NCBI GenBank assembly: GCA_001627865.1
Contig: LUQO01000004.1
Location: 136,384 to 200,383, forward strand
Source: SAR324 cluster bacterium REDSEA-S27_B3
GTDB taxonomy: Bacteria; SAR324; NAC60-12
Direction of reading: 5' to 3'
Length of the DNA stretch: 64,000 nucleotides
This document shows positions 50,753 to 60,893 of this stretch, in pieces (positions within the stretch are counted from its first letter, which is position 1; each line of letters opens with the position of its first letter). The translations under genes were made by a program, and so were the position numbers. The notes beneath the pieces were generated by a model. It was not told the origin of the DNA, made no database searches, and was given only the letters and a program-made list of their open reading frames with translations.

Positions 50753-53700
50753 ATGAACAATCGGATGGATTCAAACAATAAAAAAAATAAAAAACAAACA
50801 TCTGCATTTCATGCTGCTGAAGTAATGTCACACGATCTTTCTCTTTTGCGGGGGAAGAGGCTTTCTGCATTTTTTGATGATTCTGAAGTTAAAGGTTTGT
50901 TATCAGCAGAAGAGATAGAAAAAAAGGTTCAGCAATTGAAGAGAATTGATGTGGATTCATATATTCAACGTGTAATCAATCCCTCTGAATCAAAAAAGCG
51001 TCCAAGCGCCCCGGAAATAATTCAGCAATTAGGTGGCAAAATGATTGCTGAAGAAACAGACGGGCCGCTTTACATGTCCGAAATTGAAATAAAGTTTTCA
51101 GGGCAACCCCGCAGACTGGGTTTTATTGCACAGAATCACAAAATACAAAATGGTGTCTGGTACCCAAATCATCACCGTAAGGCGGCAGAAAAAGTGCGCT
51201 TTTTTGCTTCACACAGTATTCCATTAGTGACATTCATGGATACTCCCGGAGCTGCCGCAGATGCAGAAGCAAATCTGGGTAACCAATCTCACAGCATTTC
51301 ATTTTTAATAAGTGAGATGGCAAATTTGCAACTACCTGTTATCGGTGTAGTGTTTGGAGGCGGTTATAGCGGGGGGGCAATTCCATTGGCAACAGCAAAT
51401 ATTCTGCTTTCTGTCAGAGAAGGTGTATTTAACACGATACATCCTAAAGGCTTAAGTAACATTGCGCGTAAATATGATCTGTCCTGGCAGGAGTCTGCAA
51501 AACACATTGGTGTTTCCGCTTATGAGCTTCAATCACAAGGGTATTTTGACGGCATCATAGATTATGCTTATGATCAGCCTCATCAGGTAAAAAACATAAA
51601 GGATGCTATTATCAGCGCGGTTGAGATAACTGAGAAAAATTCATGTAATTTTTTGTATGATAATGAATTCTTCTTCGACCATTATCGCGATAGTATTTAC
51701 CATTATCTCAATCCCTCAAAACTACTGATTGAAAGCAACCGTGTAACCGATCGTTCACCAACGGGGACATTGAATATATTTGGTGATGTTTATCGTTTCA
51801 TGCGTTACCTCAAATTGCGTCAGCGCATTGTCAGCCGATCTATAGAGAATTATGCAAGGCTGAGCTCTCGGAAAACTCCGGTTGGAAAATTACAAGAAAG
51901 GTTAAAAAATGAGCGACAGGAAAAATTCCAGCAATGGTACAAAACACCTTTGGAAGTCCGATATCATGAAAAACTTAACAAACGGTTGGAACAGTTTGTC
52001 AGCGCAAGAGAAGATCGGGAAAAAGAGCGCGGGAAATTTGTAGCATTTTTTATAGGTGATCCACGAGAGAATTATCAAAAAGCTATAGATGATTTAACCT
52101 TGGAAATCCTTCTTTATCTTTATAATTTCTGGATGGATAGTACCTCAGAAAACCTGAAGGAACTTAATGAGCAATTGAGTAAATCCACTCTCCATGATCA
52201 TGCGCCAGATAATCCGAATTTACTTGATTTACTCAGAACAACTGAAATATATAAGAGCTTTCAAAAGAATTTCCAGAACATACTTCTTTTTGATTTACTT
52301 TACAATCAGGTAATAGAAGCACTCCCAACAATAGCTAATGAACTGAAAGGCACAAATCAAATTTCCCAGAAATCCGTGGAACAGCTTTTCGAACAAACTG
52401 TTGAGGGAGCTATGGAGGAATTTGAGAAAAACTCTTTGCATCATGAAAGCCATGATTTACGATCCCAGTTTTTCAAGTGGCTTGCAGGTTTTATTGAGCG
52501 CAAGGATTGTGATGATGTTTTGGGGACCATCAGTGAATGGAAAAAAGTTGTTTTTCCAAGAATGAGTCCTCCGCTGTTTGGGGTAGTTCGTTATTATTTT
52601 TCCGGGCTGCTGCCTTCGCTTTATGCCGCCCAGCAGAATAAGGGACGTTTTCAGGGGAAAATTACTCCACGCAACATTGGAATTAAAGATTTCTGGAATC
52701 GGCTTGATCAATCCTATAAGGATTTATTAATCCAAAATCTGCTGAGAGAAAACAAACGAAATATTATCACTCCAAAAAAAGTTATTGAGCATTTTTTCAA
52801 AGATTTTGAGGAACTGTATGCTGATAGAATTACCTCTAACCCTGTAAAATTTCCTGGTTTTCGAGATGCGATTGAGCAGGCATTAGAGAATGGGGTAACA
52901 CCATGTGGTGTGGTAACCGGACTGGGAACATTCACAGGTGATGAAATAACTGAATCTGACGAAGGGAAAAAATCAAAAACCAAAAAAACTAAAACAAATT
53001 ATCGTGTCGGACTTGTGGTAAGCAATGTGGAGTTTCAAGCAGGTTCTTTTGACATGGCAAGCTGTGAAAAAGTTTGCAGACTGCTTGATGATTGTGCTCG
53101 TTTAAAATTGCCTGTGATCTTTTTTATCTCTTCAGCAGGCATGCAAACAAAAGAGGGCGGCGGCTCTTTATTTTCCATGGCCATCATTAATGAACGCATT
53201 ACCCGATTTGTAAAGGACTTGGATCTTCCGGTACTGTGTTTTGGTTTCCGTGACTGTACCGGAGGGGCACAGGCTAGTTTTGTCACTCATCTGCTTGCAA
53301 GAACATATTATTTTTCCGGATCACAAATACCATTTGCCGGTCAACTGGTAGTAGAAAGTCATTTGCCAGCCCATTCTACATTATCAAATTATTTGTCCAG
53401 TAATCCAGGAACAATGGATGGTCTTGTAAAAAATCCGTTTGACAAGGGAATTGATGAAAAACTGAAGGAAATTGATCCGCAAATTCCTGTCGGCCAATTC
53501 TCAGTGGAAGAGATCATCTCGCGTATCCTGTCAGGTGAATATCAAATCTCAGCAGGTGAAGAAGTCAAATCATATTCCACTCAGGAAAATTTACACACTG
53601 GCGAAATAAAACGAATTTTAATTCACGCCCGGGGATGTACCGCTGCCAGACTGATACGAGGGTCACAGGATGCAGGACTGGAGGTTGTGCTGGTAGCTTC

Positions 53701-55348
53701 TGATCCGGATATGGAAAGTTATCCTGCCAGCTTGCTGAGCGAAAAAGATCACCTGGTTTGTATTGGAGGAAAAACTCCCCAGGATAGTTACTTGAACGGA
53801 ATGAGTGTAATAAGAATCGCCGAACAGGAGGAAGTTGATGCAATTCATCCCGGAATTGGTTTTTTATCAGAATCACCTCATTATGCACGTATTTGCAGAG
53901 AGCATGGATTCAATTTTGTAGGTCCTCGTGCGGTAAATATGGACAGAATGGGGAACAAATCGAATGCGATTGCTACCGCCCGAAGCCTGAATATCCCTGT
54001 TGTCCCTGGTAGTGAAGGTGCCTTAATGGAACCTGCGCACGCTATGAACGTGGCTTCAGAAATTGGTTTCCCTGTTCTGATAAAAGCCGCTCATGGTGGT
54101 GGAGGTAAAGGGATTGAGGTAGTGAGAGAGGCTGGGCGGTTCCAGTCTACTTTCACTCGTATGTCACAGGAAGCTTTGAGCGCTTTTGGAAATGGGGATT
54201 TATATCTGGAAAAATACATTGGTTCAATGCGTCACCTGGAATTGCAGATAATTCGTGACATGCACGGCAATTCAAAATTGCTGGGAATTCGGGATTGTTC
54301 CATTCAGCGTAACTACCAGAAACTTATTGAGGAAACTGCTTCCAGAATTCCTACAAAAATCAAGGATCAGCTATATAATTATGCAGAAAAATTGATTGAG
54401 GAAATTGATTATGTAGGTGCGGGAACAGTAGAATTTATCTACGATTTGGCAGAAAAAAAGGTGTATTTTATGGAAATGAATACACGTCTTCAAGTAGAGC
54501 ATCCTGTATCTGAAATGGTTTCCGGAGTTGATCTTGTTCGCCAGCAGTTTGAAGTTGCACAGGGTAATAACATTCGTGATTTGGATTATAAGCTAAACGG
54601 ACATGCAATTGAATTGCGTGTGATTGCCGAGAAAGTTGAGTTGGATGATAATGGTGAATTATTGTTTGTGCCCGATCCAGGTCATGTGACAGAAGTGTTT
54701 TTCCCTGAAAAGTCTAATGTAAGAGTTATTCAAACGGTAACTTCTGGTTCTGTGGTTTCACCTTTTTATGACAGCCTTGTTGCGCAAATTATTTGCTGGG
54801 GCAAATCACGCCGCGATGCAATCAACCGTTTACTTGATTATTTAAAACGAGTGAGAATTCATGGTATTTCAACTAACCTTGCTTTGAACCGTGCAATTTT
54901 GCAGGATGCGTCTTTTCAAAAAGGAAGTTTCAGCACAGGATTTCTTGCGGATTTTTTCATGCGAATTGACTCACAGAAACTATTAAATGAAGCCCGAAAA
55001 GATTCCGGTGCGTCAAAAAGTCCTGTGGATAAAAAGTCCATAATGCTGGAAGGCTCAGATGAACTTAAAGTCTTATCTCCCCAGATGGGCGGCTTCTATC
55101 GCGCCCCGTCAGAAGAAGATGATCCGTTTGTCAGTGAGGGTCAGATCATTGACGTAAATCAAACACTCTGTTTGCTGGAATCAATGAAAGTCTTCTCAGA
55201 GTTAACGCTTTCGGACTATAAAGGTCCGGATGGCAGTACATTATATCCGGATGATATTAAATACAAAGTAACTCGAGTTATTGCAGAAGACCAAAACACT
55301 GTAAATCAGGGCGATTTGCTATTTGTGATGCTGCCTATGGTTGCCTGA
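50753..55348 (+). CDS. Single-chain acetyl-CoA carboxylase: CT-alpha-like, CT-beta-like, biotin carboxylase, BCCP
   Basis: 1531 aa; AccA-like 'MDTPGAAADAEANLGNQSHSISFLISEMANLQLPVIGVVFGGGYSGGAIPL'; AccD-like 'GSFDMASCEKVCRLLDDC..GGGSLFSMAIINERI'; BC 'IKAAHGGGGKGIEVV..MEMNTRLQVEHPVSEMV'; biotinyl 'LESMKVF'. Confidence 0.88.
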   Translation: MNNRMDSNNKKNKKQTSAFHAAEVMSHDLSLLRGKRLSAFFDDSEVKGLLSAEEIEKKVQQLKRIDVDSYIQRVINPSESKKRPSAPEIIQQLGGKMIAEETDGPLYMSEIEIKFSGQPRRLGFIAQNHKIQNGVWYPNHHRKAAEKVRFFASHSIPLVTFMDTPGAAADAEANLGNQSHSISFLISEMANLQLPVIGVVFGGGYSGGAIPLATANILLSVREGVFNTIHPKGLSNIARKYDLSWQESAKHIGVSAYELQSQGYFDGIIDYAYDQPHQVKNIKDAIISAVEITEKNSCNFLYDNEFFFDHYRDSIYHYLNPSKLLIESNRVTDRSPTGTLNIFGDVYRFMRYLKLRQRIVSRSIENYARLSSRKTPVGKLQERLKNERQEKFQQWYKTPLEVRYHEKLNKRLEQFVSAREDREKERGKFVAFFIGDPRENYQKAIDDLTLEILLYLYNFWMDSTSENLKELNEQLSKSTLHDHAPDNPNLLDLLRTTEIYKSFQKNFQNILLFDLLYNQVIEALPTIANELKGTNQISQKSVEQLFEQTVEGAMEEFEKNSLHHESHDLRSQFFKWLAGFIERKDCDDVLGTISEWKKVVFPRMSPPLFGVVRYYFSGLLPSLYAAQQNKGRFQGKITPRNIGIKDFWNRLDQSYKDLLIQNLLRENKRNIITPKKVIEHFFKDFEELYADRITSNPVKFPGFRDAIEQALENGVTPCGVVTGLGTFTGDEITESDEGKKSKTKKTKTNYRVGLVVSNVEFQAGSFDMASCEKVCRLLDDCARLKLPVIFFISSAGMQTKEGGGSLFSMAIINERITRFVKDLDLPVLCFGFRDCTGGAQASFVTHLLARTYYFSGSQIPFAGQLVVESHLPAHSTLSNYLSSNPGTMDGLVKNPFDKGIDEKLKEIDPQIPVGQFSVEEIISRILSGEYQISAGEEVKSYSTQENLHTGEIKRILIHARGCTAARLIRGSQDAGLEVVLVASDPDMESYPASLLSEKDHLVCIGGKTPQDSYLNGMSVIRIAEQEEVDAIHPGIGFLSESPHYARICREHGFNFVGPRAVNMDRMGNKSNAIATARSLNIPVVPGSEGALMEPAHAMNVASEIGFPVLIKAAHGGGGKGIEVVREAGRFQSTFTRMSQEALSAFGNGDLYLEKYIGSMRHLELQIIRDMHGNSKLLGIRDCSIQRNYQKLIEETASRIPTKIKDQLYNYAEKLIEEIDYVGAGTVEFIYDLAEKKVYFMEMNTRLQVEHPVSEMVSGVDLVRQQFEVAQGNNIRDLDYKLNGHAIELRVIAEKVELDDNGELLFVPDPGHVTEVFFPEKSNVRVIQTVTSGSVVSPFYDSLVAQIICWGKSRRDAINRLLDYLKRVRIHGISTNLALNRAILQDASFQKGSFSTGFLADFFMRIDSQKLLNEARKDSGASKSPVDKKSIMLEGSDELKVLSPQMGGFYRAPSEEDDPFVSEGQIIDVNQTLCLLESMKVFSELTLSDYKGPDGSTLYPDDIKYKVTRVIAEDQNTVNQGDLLFVMLPMVA

Positions 55349-57700: not shown

Positions 57701-58016
57701 TGTGTCAATTTAGTACATTCAATTCAAGGGATAAATACAACACCTGCAGATAGTCAACACATCCTAATACAATCAGCATGCCGTTGAGCAGCTTACGATT
57801 CAAGTATTCATTCTTTATATTTTACAGCACTTTTTTTGACATAGCTGTTGATTTTTTCACCTGAATTTAACTTGTTTGGAAGAGTAACTTATATATTTCT
57901 CTACAATTAAAATAATTGTTTGTGGTCTCCATATTGCAGTAATACAAATAAATGACTTTATTTAAAAAGAATAAAGAATATATTAATCAATATATTTCAA
58001 CTACTTAGGAGAAAAA

Positions 58017-58190
58017 ATGAGTGTTTCTCGCGATCAGATAAATGAAGCAATGGCTCGATTTTTAGAACGCGGAGGTTCAATCCGTCGCTATGATCGAGTT
58101 GTAGGAGAGCCGATTTTAGGCAGTGATATTTGGATTACTGAAGACACATTGGAACTGATTGAAACGAATGACTCCGATTTTTGGGGTTAA
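58017..58190 (+). CDS. Small protein, 57 aa, paralog 1 of tandem pair
   Basis: MSVSRDQINEAMARFLERGGSIRRYDRVVGEPILGSDIWITEDTLELIETNDSDFWG; Shine-Dalgarno 'aggag' 6-7 nt before ATG; not in supplied ORF track. Confidence 0.75.
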   Translation: MSVSRDQINEAMARFLERGGSIRRYDRVVGEPILGSDIWITEDTLELIETNDSDFWG

Positions 58191-58285
58191 TCACATTTTT
58201 TTCAGAAAGTTTTTACTTTAGTGTAACGCAGAACTAATCAAGGCTATTTTATTTAGATTATTATAATTAGAACTCAGGAGATGTA

Positions 58286-58444
58286 ATGAGTGTTTCCAAC
58301 CAAAAAAATAATGATGCAATGGCTCGATTTCTTGTACGACGCTATCAGCAGACTGTATTCGTACCTGTATTAGGTAGTGATACAATTCCCTCTGAGAATA
58401 CAATAGAGCTTATCAAAACTCATGACTCAGATTTTCTGGGATAA
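58286..58444 (+). CDS. Small protein, 52 aa, paralog 2 of tandem pair
   Basis: MSVSNQKNNDAMARFLVRRYQQTVFVPVLGSDTIPSENTIELIKTHDSDFLG; Shine-Dalgarno 'aggag' before ATG; conserved with paralog 1 (MSVS/AMARFL/LGSD/ELI.T.DSDF.G). Confidence 0.75.
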   Translation: MSVSNQKNNDAMARFLVRRYQQTVFVPVLGSDTIPSENTIELIKTHDSDFLG

Positions 58445-58646: not shown

Positions 58647-60893
58647 TTAATCACGTTTTTGGGTCTGTTCCAGCAATTTCCAGCGAATAATGGGGATTTG
58701 TTTGAGGATTTCAATATCTGTGATGTTATAGACTTTTACACGTGTAGTTGCTTTTGCGAGACTTTTTCTGGATGTGTTTGAGATCATTTTCTCGCCTCCC
58801 CAAAAATCACCTTTTCCAACAACATGTTTTCTTCCGGATTTTTCATCTTGCTGTGAGCTGAGCTCCACTTTCCCTTCGTGAACAAGCATTAACCCTTCAT
58901 AATCTATTTTCTCTCCTTTTGAGAAATTTTGAAGTGTCATATTTTGCGCAATTTGACTTTGGACAGGAGATGAAATTGATTCTCCAAATAACCATGTCTG
59001 CTGCAAAAATTCGGTGATTTCATGTGTTTTTTGCAGCTGTTCTATTAGATTGTTACGATGCACAAACTCTTTGAATAAAATTGCGGGTATCTTGAGAGTT
59101 TCAATATGACTTAGGGCTCGGTAAGTTCCACTGCTTTTAAGTCCAAACAGAACCGCCAGATCTCCTATTAATGTACCGCTTGATAACAGGTATCTTGTTT
59201 TTTCTTCTGTAGAAAGGAATTCCGCGACACCTGTAAGCACCAGACAGGCATGATTCGGAATTTCCTGATCCTTCAGCAAAACTGTTCCGGGACTGATTAA
59301 TTCCCGTTTACAATTCAGCAGCATGTGGATTTCACCGTCTTCAACATTTGGATAATATCCCTGTAGATATGCTCCTCCGAATTCAAGCGGATAATCTTCA
59401 TGACCTTCAATCAAAACATCGGCGCTGCCGAAAGTGACGCCACAACCAATCAACAGCTCGTCATGAGTCAACTTGTGCGCGGTATGGGCTAAAATGATTT
59501 TCTCAGATTTGTCATCCTTGAAATCCTCAGCCTTGCCGTGAATAATTCCACCTCCGATATCAATTTTCTTGACTTGCACGGGACTCAGATAATCTTCCCA
59601 GACTTTATTCTTTAATTTCTTGCTTATTCCCGGCTCTTTCTTATTTTCCTGGAGCATCTTTTTCAATACATCATGAGAAGCCACGTCTGCTAAATGTGCG
59701 TATGTGGCATATCCCTCTTCCCATAGTGTCCGGAAGAACAATATATTTGTTTCAACCGGATGCGGGGAAAATACTGGCTTTACCTCCAGCCCATCAATGT
59801 TGTTCCATTCATCAAACTCCAGATCACAAACTTCGAAATATTCTTCAAATGTACTTTCCTTGATAGACATAAGTGAGGACAGCTTCTTTGTAACAGTGGC
59901 ACGCACCATCTGGGTGGAGTAGTACTTTATCCGGTGATTTGTATGGATAAGGGTAGTGAGACCGGCAAAATGATCATCATGTGCGTGAGTTTGAAAAATT
60001 CCCTCCACTTCATTCACATCAACTCCAATGGCATTCAAGGTATGCGAAATGTTCGGACCAACATCGATCAGAAAGATTTTCCCCTGAAAACATATAACAC
60101 TGGCCATGCATGGACGATTAATATCCCAGCCGTCTCCTTCACCGGTATGAACGATGGAGAAATATTCACGCTTGAAATGATGGTTCTCCAGTTGATAGGG
60201 TGTTTCATATTTTTCATTTTTCCCCAGGCTCAAGTCAACTTCTACTCGCTCACCTTTGTAAACAAAATCATAGCAGTTTGTTTTCTTTCTGACGACCTTT
60301 ACTCCGTTCAGGACTTCCACGGGCTGATGACCAACTATTACGGAATGCAGCAGGTCACTACTTGGACGTATTTCCCCAAAGGCAAAGAACAGTTTTATAC
60401 GCATCATCTCTTCTGCCTGTTTCTGAGGTATGCCCGCGGCGAGGATGTCTTCAAGACTAGTCAAACCATAGTTCCCCCGGTAAATGTAATTCATTTGTGC
60501 GTTAACCACGTTTTCGTGTCCTATAAGCAACGGTTTAGCACCGGTATTGTTGGGATGATTGGGCAGCAGCATACCCTGTCGATAAAGCATCTGAAGTACC
60601 GGGAACTCTGCTAAATTAGCAAAGTCACCTTTCTGTACGCTCAGGTCGGAAAGTAGAATAGCATTTGGTCCGGTTTCATTAGTAATTGTTCCATGTGTAT
60701 GATGGTTCGGACCTGATTCAGAATCTGTTTCTATTATATAGTCATGTATCTTGCCGGCTTTCATCAAGTGTTTTACGCTGTCAGCAGGACAACCGCAGAG
60801 GACATATAATTCTGCTTCCGGTACTTCCAGCCAGTAAACACCGGTCGAGATTTTTGTTTTGGAAATTTTGGTCATTGCGGTATTCACAAACAC
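58647..60893 (-). CDS. Metallo-beta-lactamase-fold protein with C-terminal tandem cyclic-nucleotide-binding-like domains
   Basis: 748 aa; MBL 'FQTHAHDDHFAGL'; CNB-like 'SPGTVLLKDQEIPNHACLVLTGVAEFL..SSGTLIGDLAVLFG' and 'FSKGEKIDYEGLMLVHEGKVELSSQQ..VGKGDFWGGEKM'. Confidence 0.8.
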   Translation of the reverse strand: MFVNTAMTKISKTKISTGVYWLEVPEAELYVLCGCPADSVKHLMKAGKIHDYIIETDSESGPNHHTHGTITNETGPNAILLSDLSVQKGDFANLAEFPVLQMLYRQGMLLPNHPNNTGAKPLLIGHENVVNAQMNYIYRGNYGLTSLEDILAAGIPQKQAEEMMRIKLFFAFGEIRPSSDLLHSVIVGHQPVEVLNGVKVVRKKTNCYDFVYKGERVEVDLSLGKNEKYETPYQLENHHFKREYFSIVHTGEGDGWDINRPCMASVICFQGKIFLIDVGPNISHTLNAIGVDVNEVEGIFQTHAHDDHFAGLTTLIHTNHRIKYYSTQMVRATVTKKLSSLMSIKESTFEEYFEVCDLEFDEWNNIDGLEVKPVFSPHPVETNILFFRTLWEEGYATYAHLADVASHDVLKKMLQENKKEPGISKKLKNKVWEDYLSPVQVKKIDIGGGIIHGKAEDFKDDKSEKIILAHTAHKLTHDELLIGCGVTFGSADVLIEGHEDYPLEFGGAYLQGYYPNVEDGEIHMLLNCKRELISPGTVLLKDQEIPNHACLVLTGVAEFLSTEEKTRYLLSSGTLIGDLAVLFGLKSSGTYRALSHIETLKIPAILFKEFVHRNNLIEQLQKTHEITEFLQQTWLFGESISSPVQSQIAQNMTLQNFSKGEKIDYEGLMLVHEGKVELSSQQDEKSGRKHVVGKGDFWGGEKMISNTSRKSLAKATTRVKVYNITDIEILKQIPIIRWKLLEQTQKRD

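Follow-up and report, generated by a model that had tools for sequence, protein, structure and literature searches.

SutA, a dormancy factor of Pseudomonas described for Alteromonadales and Pseudomonadales, uses a short domain, the SutA-RBD, to grip the β protrusion of RNA polymerase (RNAP) in Pseudomonas (PMC9300723). Cryo-EM and mutagenesis revealed protrusion contacts whose mutation weakens binding, namely K60, R64, L67, M71, F74, L75, G78, G79, V81 and I84 (PMC9300723). The acidic N-terminal domain of SutA is needed for activation (PMC9300723), and residues 77–90 run toward σ region 3.1 (PMC9300723). DksA and TraR are likewise small RNAP-binding regulators of initiation, and DksA works via the secondary channel (PMC8632087). 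Here, we describe a tandem pair of small genes from a SAR324 bacterium, of which the first, copy 1, resembles the docking part of SutA and is unrelated in sequence to DksA/TraR.

The window, i.e. the whole 64,000-nucleotide stretch of DNA analysed, comes from a SAR324-cluster genome of 3.3 Mb, which is assembled into 80 contigs. Two open reading frames described in an earlier note were recovered from the window sequence with the same positions and translations. They lie 95 nt apart, each is preceded by AGGAG a few bases 5′ of the ATG, and both are convergent to a gene for an MBL/cNMP-binding protein (58647–60893). As had been proposed, they are paralogues, since a whole-genome search with copy 1 retrieved copy 2 at an E-value of 1.3e-10. 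The features of the locus are compiled in Table 1.

Table 1. Features of the tandem locus; positions are those of the window.
Feature	Position	Strand	Basis or remark
Copy 1, 57 aa	58017..58190	+	Predicted SutA-RBD microprotein; PF20661 match, dN/dS
Copy 2, 52 aa	58286..58444	+	Tandem paralogue without GGSIR segment
AGGAG ribosome-binding site of copy 1	58007..58011	+	Sequence
AGGAG ribosome-binding site of copy 2	58276..58280	+	Sequence
σ54 (RpoN) −24/−12 promoter-like element TGGTCTCCATATTGCA	57923..57938	+	94 nt 5′ of copy 1; genus alignment
SutA-RBD core of copy 1, residues 5–25, RDQINEAMARFLERGGSIRRY	58029..58091	+	Helix, GG turn, strand start; aligned to 7f0r_G
Acidic C-terminal tail of copy 1, residues 26–57, net −8	58092..58187	+	Conserved GEPxxG...E...E..E....D

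The earlier note had recognised no known family in these proteins. For copy 1 this has to be revised, as it carries the RNAP-binding domain of SutA, PF20661. Residues 4–23 matched this Pfam family with an E-value of 3.7e-6 and 26.6 bits, which is 2.7 bits below the curated cut-off of 29.3, and the next-best Pfam family was about five orders of magnitude worse. All 17 aligned orthologues matched PF20661 as well (best 7e-8), and orthologues from sister genera (G025:C21, G019:C166, G027:C73 and G030:C190) exceeded the gathering cut-off. When a profile built from orthologues only was compared with the whole PDB, SutA (7f0r_G) ranked first at an E-value of 0.0034, and a profile of the RBD alone, built from 31 SAR324 sequences, again placed SutA first at 7.8e-4. 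The matched stretch is short (about 20–28 residues); the RBD profile also matched a de novo design at 0.0044, and weak profile matches in the PDB included L16 ribosomal proteins and others. A single-sequence search for solved relatives of copy 1 gave none, so that SutA was reached solely by way of the profile. A query blended from copy 1 and SutA matches SutA by construction and was not counted as evidence. The literature search retrieved no paper on SutA-like proteins or PFL_1563.

In the HMMER alignment, SutA residues K60, R64, L67, M71 and F74 correspond to M1, R5, I8, M12 and F15 of copy 1, and L75, G78, G79, V81 and I84 to L16, G19, G20, I22 and Y25. Nine of the ten mutated interface positions are identical or similar, the loosest being Y25 for I84, while the polar contact of K60, falling on M1, is without counterpart. 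An AF2 model of copy 1 with a mean pLDDT of 73 (medium confidence) displayed a helix at residues 5–17 and strands at 21–28 and 41–48; the order of helix and then strand is that of SutA. A fold search with this model yielded nothing significant. On the polymerase side, SAR324 RpoB has S59 and E73, the same residues with the same numbers as the SutA partners in Pseudomonas. E. coli RpoB has a Q at the E73 position of the alignment, and a Caulobacter-type RpoB (7ye1_C) also shows S59/E73, so that this pair is not confined to SutA hosts.

Like SutA (Pseudomonas aeruginosa; PDB 7xl3, 7xl4, 7f0r; NF041490), copy 1 consists of a helix, a GG turn and an I/V strand. In contrast to the approx. 105 residues of SutA, it comprises only 57, and it is without the acidic N-terminal domain and wedge loop, as only four residues precede the RBD. 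Whereas SutA is acidic on the N-terminal side, copy 1 has an acidic tail (−8) on the C-terminal side, in which G30, E31, P32, G35 and E42 are invariant in the orthologue alignment and E46, E49 and D54 nearly so. The two also differ in the σ54-type promoter of copy 1 and in the host, which is SAR324 and not a gammaproteobacterium. Against the NCBIfam SutA equivalog NF041490, copy 1 scored 14.7 bits and thus failed the cut-off of 145 by far. The domain can be identified, and both its arrangement and its lineage are unusual. As copy 1 has no wedge and is not predicted to activate in the way SutA does, it is best filed as a protein with a SutA-RBD domain and not as SutA. A further relative is the PFL_1563 family small protein NF058628, a model of 51 positions, of which positions 8–28 matched the copy 1 helix at 0.0013. 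The score remained far under the cut-off (18.4 vs 60 bits) and the tail differs from that of copy 1. NF058628 also matched the helix of a 73-aa paralogue at 4.6e-5. As it is a stand-alone small protein, members without an N-terminal domain are not unprecedented.

Full-length copy 1 orthologues were found in about 25 SAR324 genomes from four genera. They are present with the frame kept in all 17 genomes of the window's genus, and also in three further genera of its family, g2, g4 and g8. Within the genus, the alignment is gapless over 57 codons; in the G009 copy, the last codon but one (codon 56) is TGA. Copy 2 was seen only in the window's genus, where it occurs in all 16 genomes whose contig extends far enough. 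Nei-Gojobori estimates from moderately diverged pairs gave a dN/dS of about 0.1 for copy 1 and about 0.2 for copy 2, and third codon positions accounted for 66% and 47% of the differences, respectively. Mean DNA identity was 0.79 for copy 1 and 0.72 for copy 2. At 0.63, the spacer, which ranges from 75 to 98 nt across the genus, was less alike than either reading frame. Both reading frames are real genes under purifying selection. The dN/dS values, the synteny and the orthologues in other genera thereby support the initial proposal of real, selected small proteins: homologues exist, and drift is not equal at all codon positions.

Gene order is conserved across the genus (polyprenyl synthase, response regulator, trpC, copy 1, copy 2, MBL/cNMP gene). 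In g4, trpC likewise precedes copy 1; the g2 gene is divergent to dksA (DksA_N 2.5e-26; five genomes, L020–L023 and L025), and the g8 surroundings are different once more. Two other origins were considered and rejected. A phage or mobile origin is opposed by the viral-contig scan, which contained no relative, by PHROGs matches that were only weak and of unknown function, and by the stable chromosomal synteny. A peptide precursor or toxin-antitoxin pair was dismissed on gene content, as neither a toxin nor a modification-enzyme gene is found next to the two copies, where trpC, response regulator, MBL/cNMP and polyprenyl synthase genes lie.

PF20661 was detected at E ≤0.01 in 48 of 52 SAR324 genomes, with 1–7 matches per genome, compared with none of six genomes of other phyla and one of 14 controls, the latter under the cut-off. 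Three loci of the window's genome matched the RBD profile; besides copy 1, they encode proteins of 73 aa (on C7) and 102 aa (on C4). The latter two (L003:1474-1695; L078, minus strand) differ in their tails, and each has orthologues in the genus. We gathered 31 SAR324 RBD proteins of 56–102 aa, with start codons set by rule. Their mean tail charge was +3.2 on the N-side and −4.8 on the C-side (Wilcoxon p 1e-6, only indicative because the 31 proteins are related), and the C-side tail was negative in 31 of 31. The polarity of these approx. 30 small proteins is therefore inverted relative to SutA. None of the 31 is a full-length SutA with an acidic N-terminus, and no N-tail goes beyond net −2. 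The tails vary widely among the paralogues. The positions of G78, G79 and V81 are invariant (V81 always as I), which is partly due to the collecting pattern; all 31 have F or Y at F74, 29 have R or H at R64 and nine have K at K60.

The genus alignment displayed one near-invariant block 5′ of copy 1, TGGTCTGNANATTGCA. It fits the σ54 consensus TGGCACG-N4-TTGC(T/A) (PMC9765219), with the diagnostic GG and GC at correct spacing. A GG/GC site agreeing with the consensus in at least 8 of 12 positions (range 8–10) was located within 150 nt 5′ of all 25 copy 1 orthologues from four genera, compared with 3% of shuffled upstream regions. Sequences within one genus are not independent; the four genera, which have different neighbours, each carry such a site, at −94 to −99, −111, −54 and −96. 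The window's own element matches the consensus in 8 of 12 positions, and the g2 sites in 9–10. Within the window the motif occurs once, against 1.84 expected, and thus shows no enrichment; a count there alone would not reveal the element, and conservation is the evidence. Upstream of other RBD paralogues, sites of that quality (8 or more of 12) occurred in a background-like 4 of 38 cases, so the promoter appears confined to the group of copy 1. Scans for σ70 promoters and terminators gave sites no more numerous than in shuffles. Genes for RpoN (1.8e-59) and for three strong σ54 activators are present in the window's genome. These data suggest σ54 (RpoN)-dependent transcription of copy 1. Separately, a 284-aa protein (L104:1276-2130, plus strand; C58:6487-6927 in the window's genome) matched solely the σ54 DNA-binding domain PF04552 (1.5e-7). 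It is a truncated σ54-like protein, possibly borne by a mobile element, and nearby short reading frames look ORF6N- and MazF-like by eye.

Copy 2 is 60% identical to copy 1 across the aligned stretch. It keeps the helix, with N9, A11 and M12 invariant and A13, F15 and L16 nearly so, and the DSDF-G end is kept; within copy 2, M1, N9, A11, M12, R19, Y20, I43, S48 and F50 are invariant. The conservation of both ends reported earlier fits two functional parts, a predicted RNAP-binding helix in the N-terminal half and an acidic tail in the C-terminal half. The middle, described as divergent, is so only in part, as part of the difference is a clean deletion of five residues, GGSIR of copy 1. The GG turn and the following I/V are consequently absent from every copy 2. 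None of 14 members matched PF20661. Bulky substitutions of the two glycines of SutA impair binding (PMC9300723), which makes SutA-like docking of copy 2 unlikely. Copy 2 has probably lost this docking mode and taken a modified role; that it is a partner or antagonist of copy 1 would be a guess.

On the basis of these sequence comparisons, we consider it probable that copy 1 is a σ54-controlled microprotein that docks on RNAP and modulates initiation via its tail. Transcription would start from a σ54-dependent promoter, and synthesis of the protein would then probably respond to a nutrient or stress signal sensed by an enhancer-binding protein. The N-terminal amphipathic helix, GG turn and strand may dock in the hydrophobic groove of the β protrusion as the SutA-RBD does. 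Because copy 1 begins almost at the helix, it has no acidic N-terminal arm or wedge loop for opening the β lobe; SutA-type activation is thus not predicted, and inhibition or competition is possible. The segment following the helix in SutA heads to σ region 3.1, so the acidic tail of copy 1 should act there, where it could change open-complex formation or compete with other factors and DNA. The result would be a modulation of initiation under limitation. Copy 2 represents a genus-specific duplicate which keeps the helix and the tail end, always without the GG turn. We infer binding of copy 1, its use of σ54, its effect on initiation and the role of copy 2 from the comparisons described above.

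Several other explanations have to be weighed against this scheme. The conserved upstream block might be the binding site of another regulator instead of a σ54 promoter, given that element positions 4–6 read TCT in the window's genus vs the classical CAC and that the P-II genes of the same genome, used as a positive control, had no σ54 site upstream. This is unlikely in view of the GG and GC at exact −24/−12 spacing in 25 of 25 orthologues from four genera, the better-matching g2 sites and the presence of rpoN and bEBPs. With regard to copy 2, it is conceivable that it works together with copy 1 as antagonist or partner and is not a drifting duplicate en route to loss, although the balance tilts somewhat against this. 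Its retention in 16 of 16 genomes with an identical deletion, the low dN/dS, the invariant residues and its co-linear position 75–98 nt 3′ of copy 1 speak for a joint function; amino-acid evolution about twice as fast as in copy 1 and a weak AF2 model (64) argue against it.

Copy 1 could also bind the β protrusion as a passive competitor, blocking other protrusion-binding factors by means of the RBD while the tail is inactive. SutA deprived of its N-terminal domain indeed keeps the protrusion-binding RBD and does not activate transcription (PMC9300723), and copy 1 is naturally without that arm. Nevertheless, its tail and its RBD are conserved to about the same degree, which renders pure competition improbable; moreover, as no SutA with an acidic N-terminus exists among the 31 SAR324 proteins, the factor competed against is not obvious. 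Alternatively, helix, GG turn and I may form a general short protein-docking module whose SAR324 partner is not RNAP and might be e.g. another regulator or an enzyme. The shortness of the motif, the widely varied paralogue tails and similar stretches in unrelated proteins are in line with this idea. It is hardly to be expected, however, when nine interface positions stay in register across 31 divergent paralogues, SutA is the best PDB match for both profiles, the RpoB partner residues are kept and dksA adjoins in one genus.

If copy 1 is indeed a σ54-driven RNAP-docking microprotein, the β protrusion would be a docking site common to small regulators, and the family would open to testing the way in which SAR324 adapts its transcription to low nutrients. 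Stand-alone, oppositely built SutA docking cores would then occur throughout an abundant marine lineage, and genes that are easily overlooked now have a family name. A more far-reaching and rather doubtful idea is that SAR324 possesses a multi-member set of stand-alone SutA-RBD microproteins, frequently several to a genome, that share one RNAP site, differ in their acidic tails and serve as exchangeable adaptors which tune RNAP under different signals. The σ54-driven copy of the window would be one such adaptor, regulated by its GG-less tandem copy.

Some further observations concern the surroundings of the pair. In some species of the genus, a membrane-protein reading frame lies between trpC and copy 1. 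In several species, copy 2 and the MBL/cNMP gene are separated by approx. 850 additional bp; in L039 and L040 these contain a 259-aa reading frame (L039:5476-6255, L040:5471-6250) resembling an MTA/purine phosphorylase by eye, and the window is without it. The MBL/cNMP gene itself (minus strand) encodes 748 aa with a metallo-β-lactamase fold and two cNMP-binding matches, and displays a weak, sub-threshold likeness to the anti-Pycsar family Apyc1 (1e-4). Further upstream, at 50753–55348 on the plus strand, a 1531-aa reading frame appears by eye to unite the carboxyltransferase, biotin carboxylase and biotinyl (ESMKV) portions of an acyl-CoA carboxylase within a single polypeptide.
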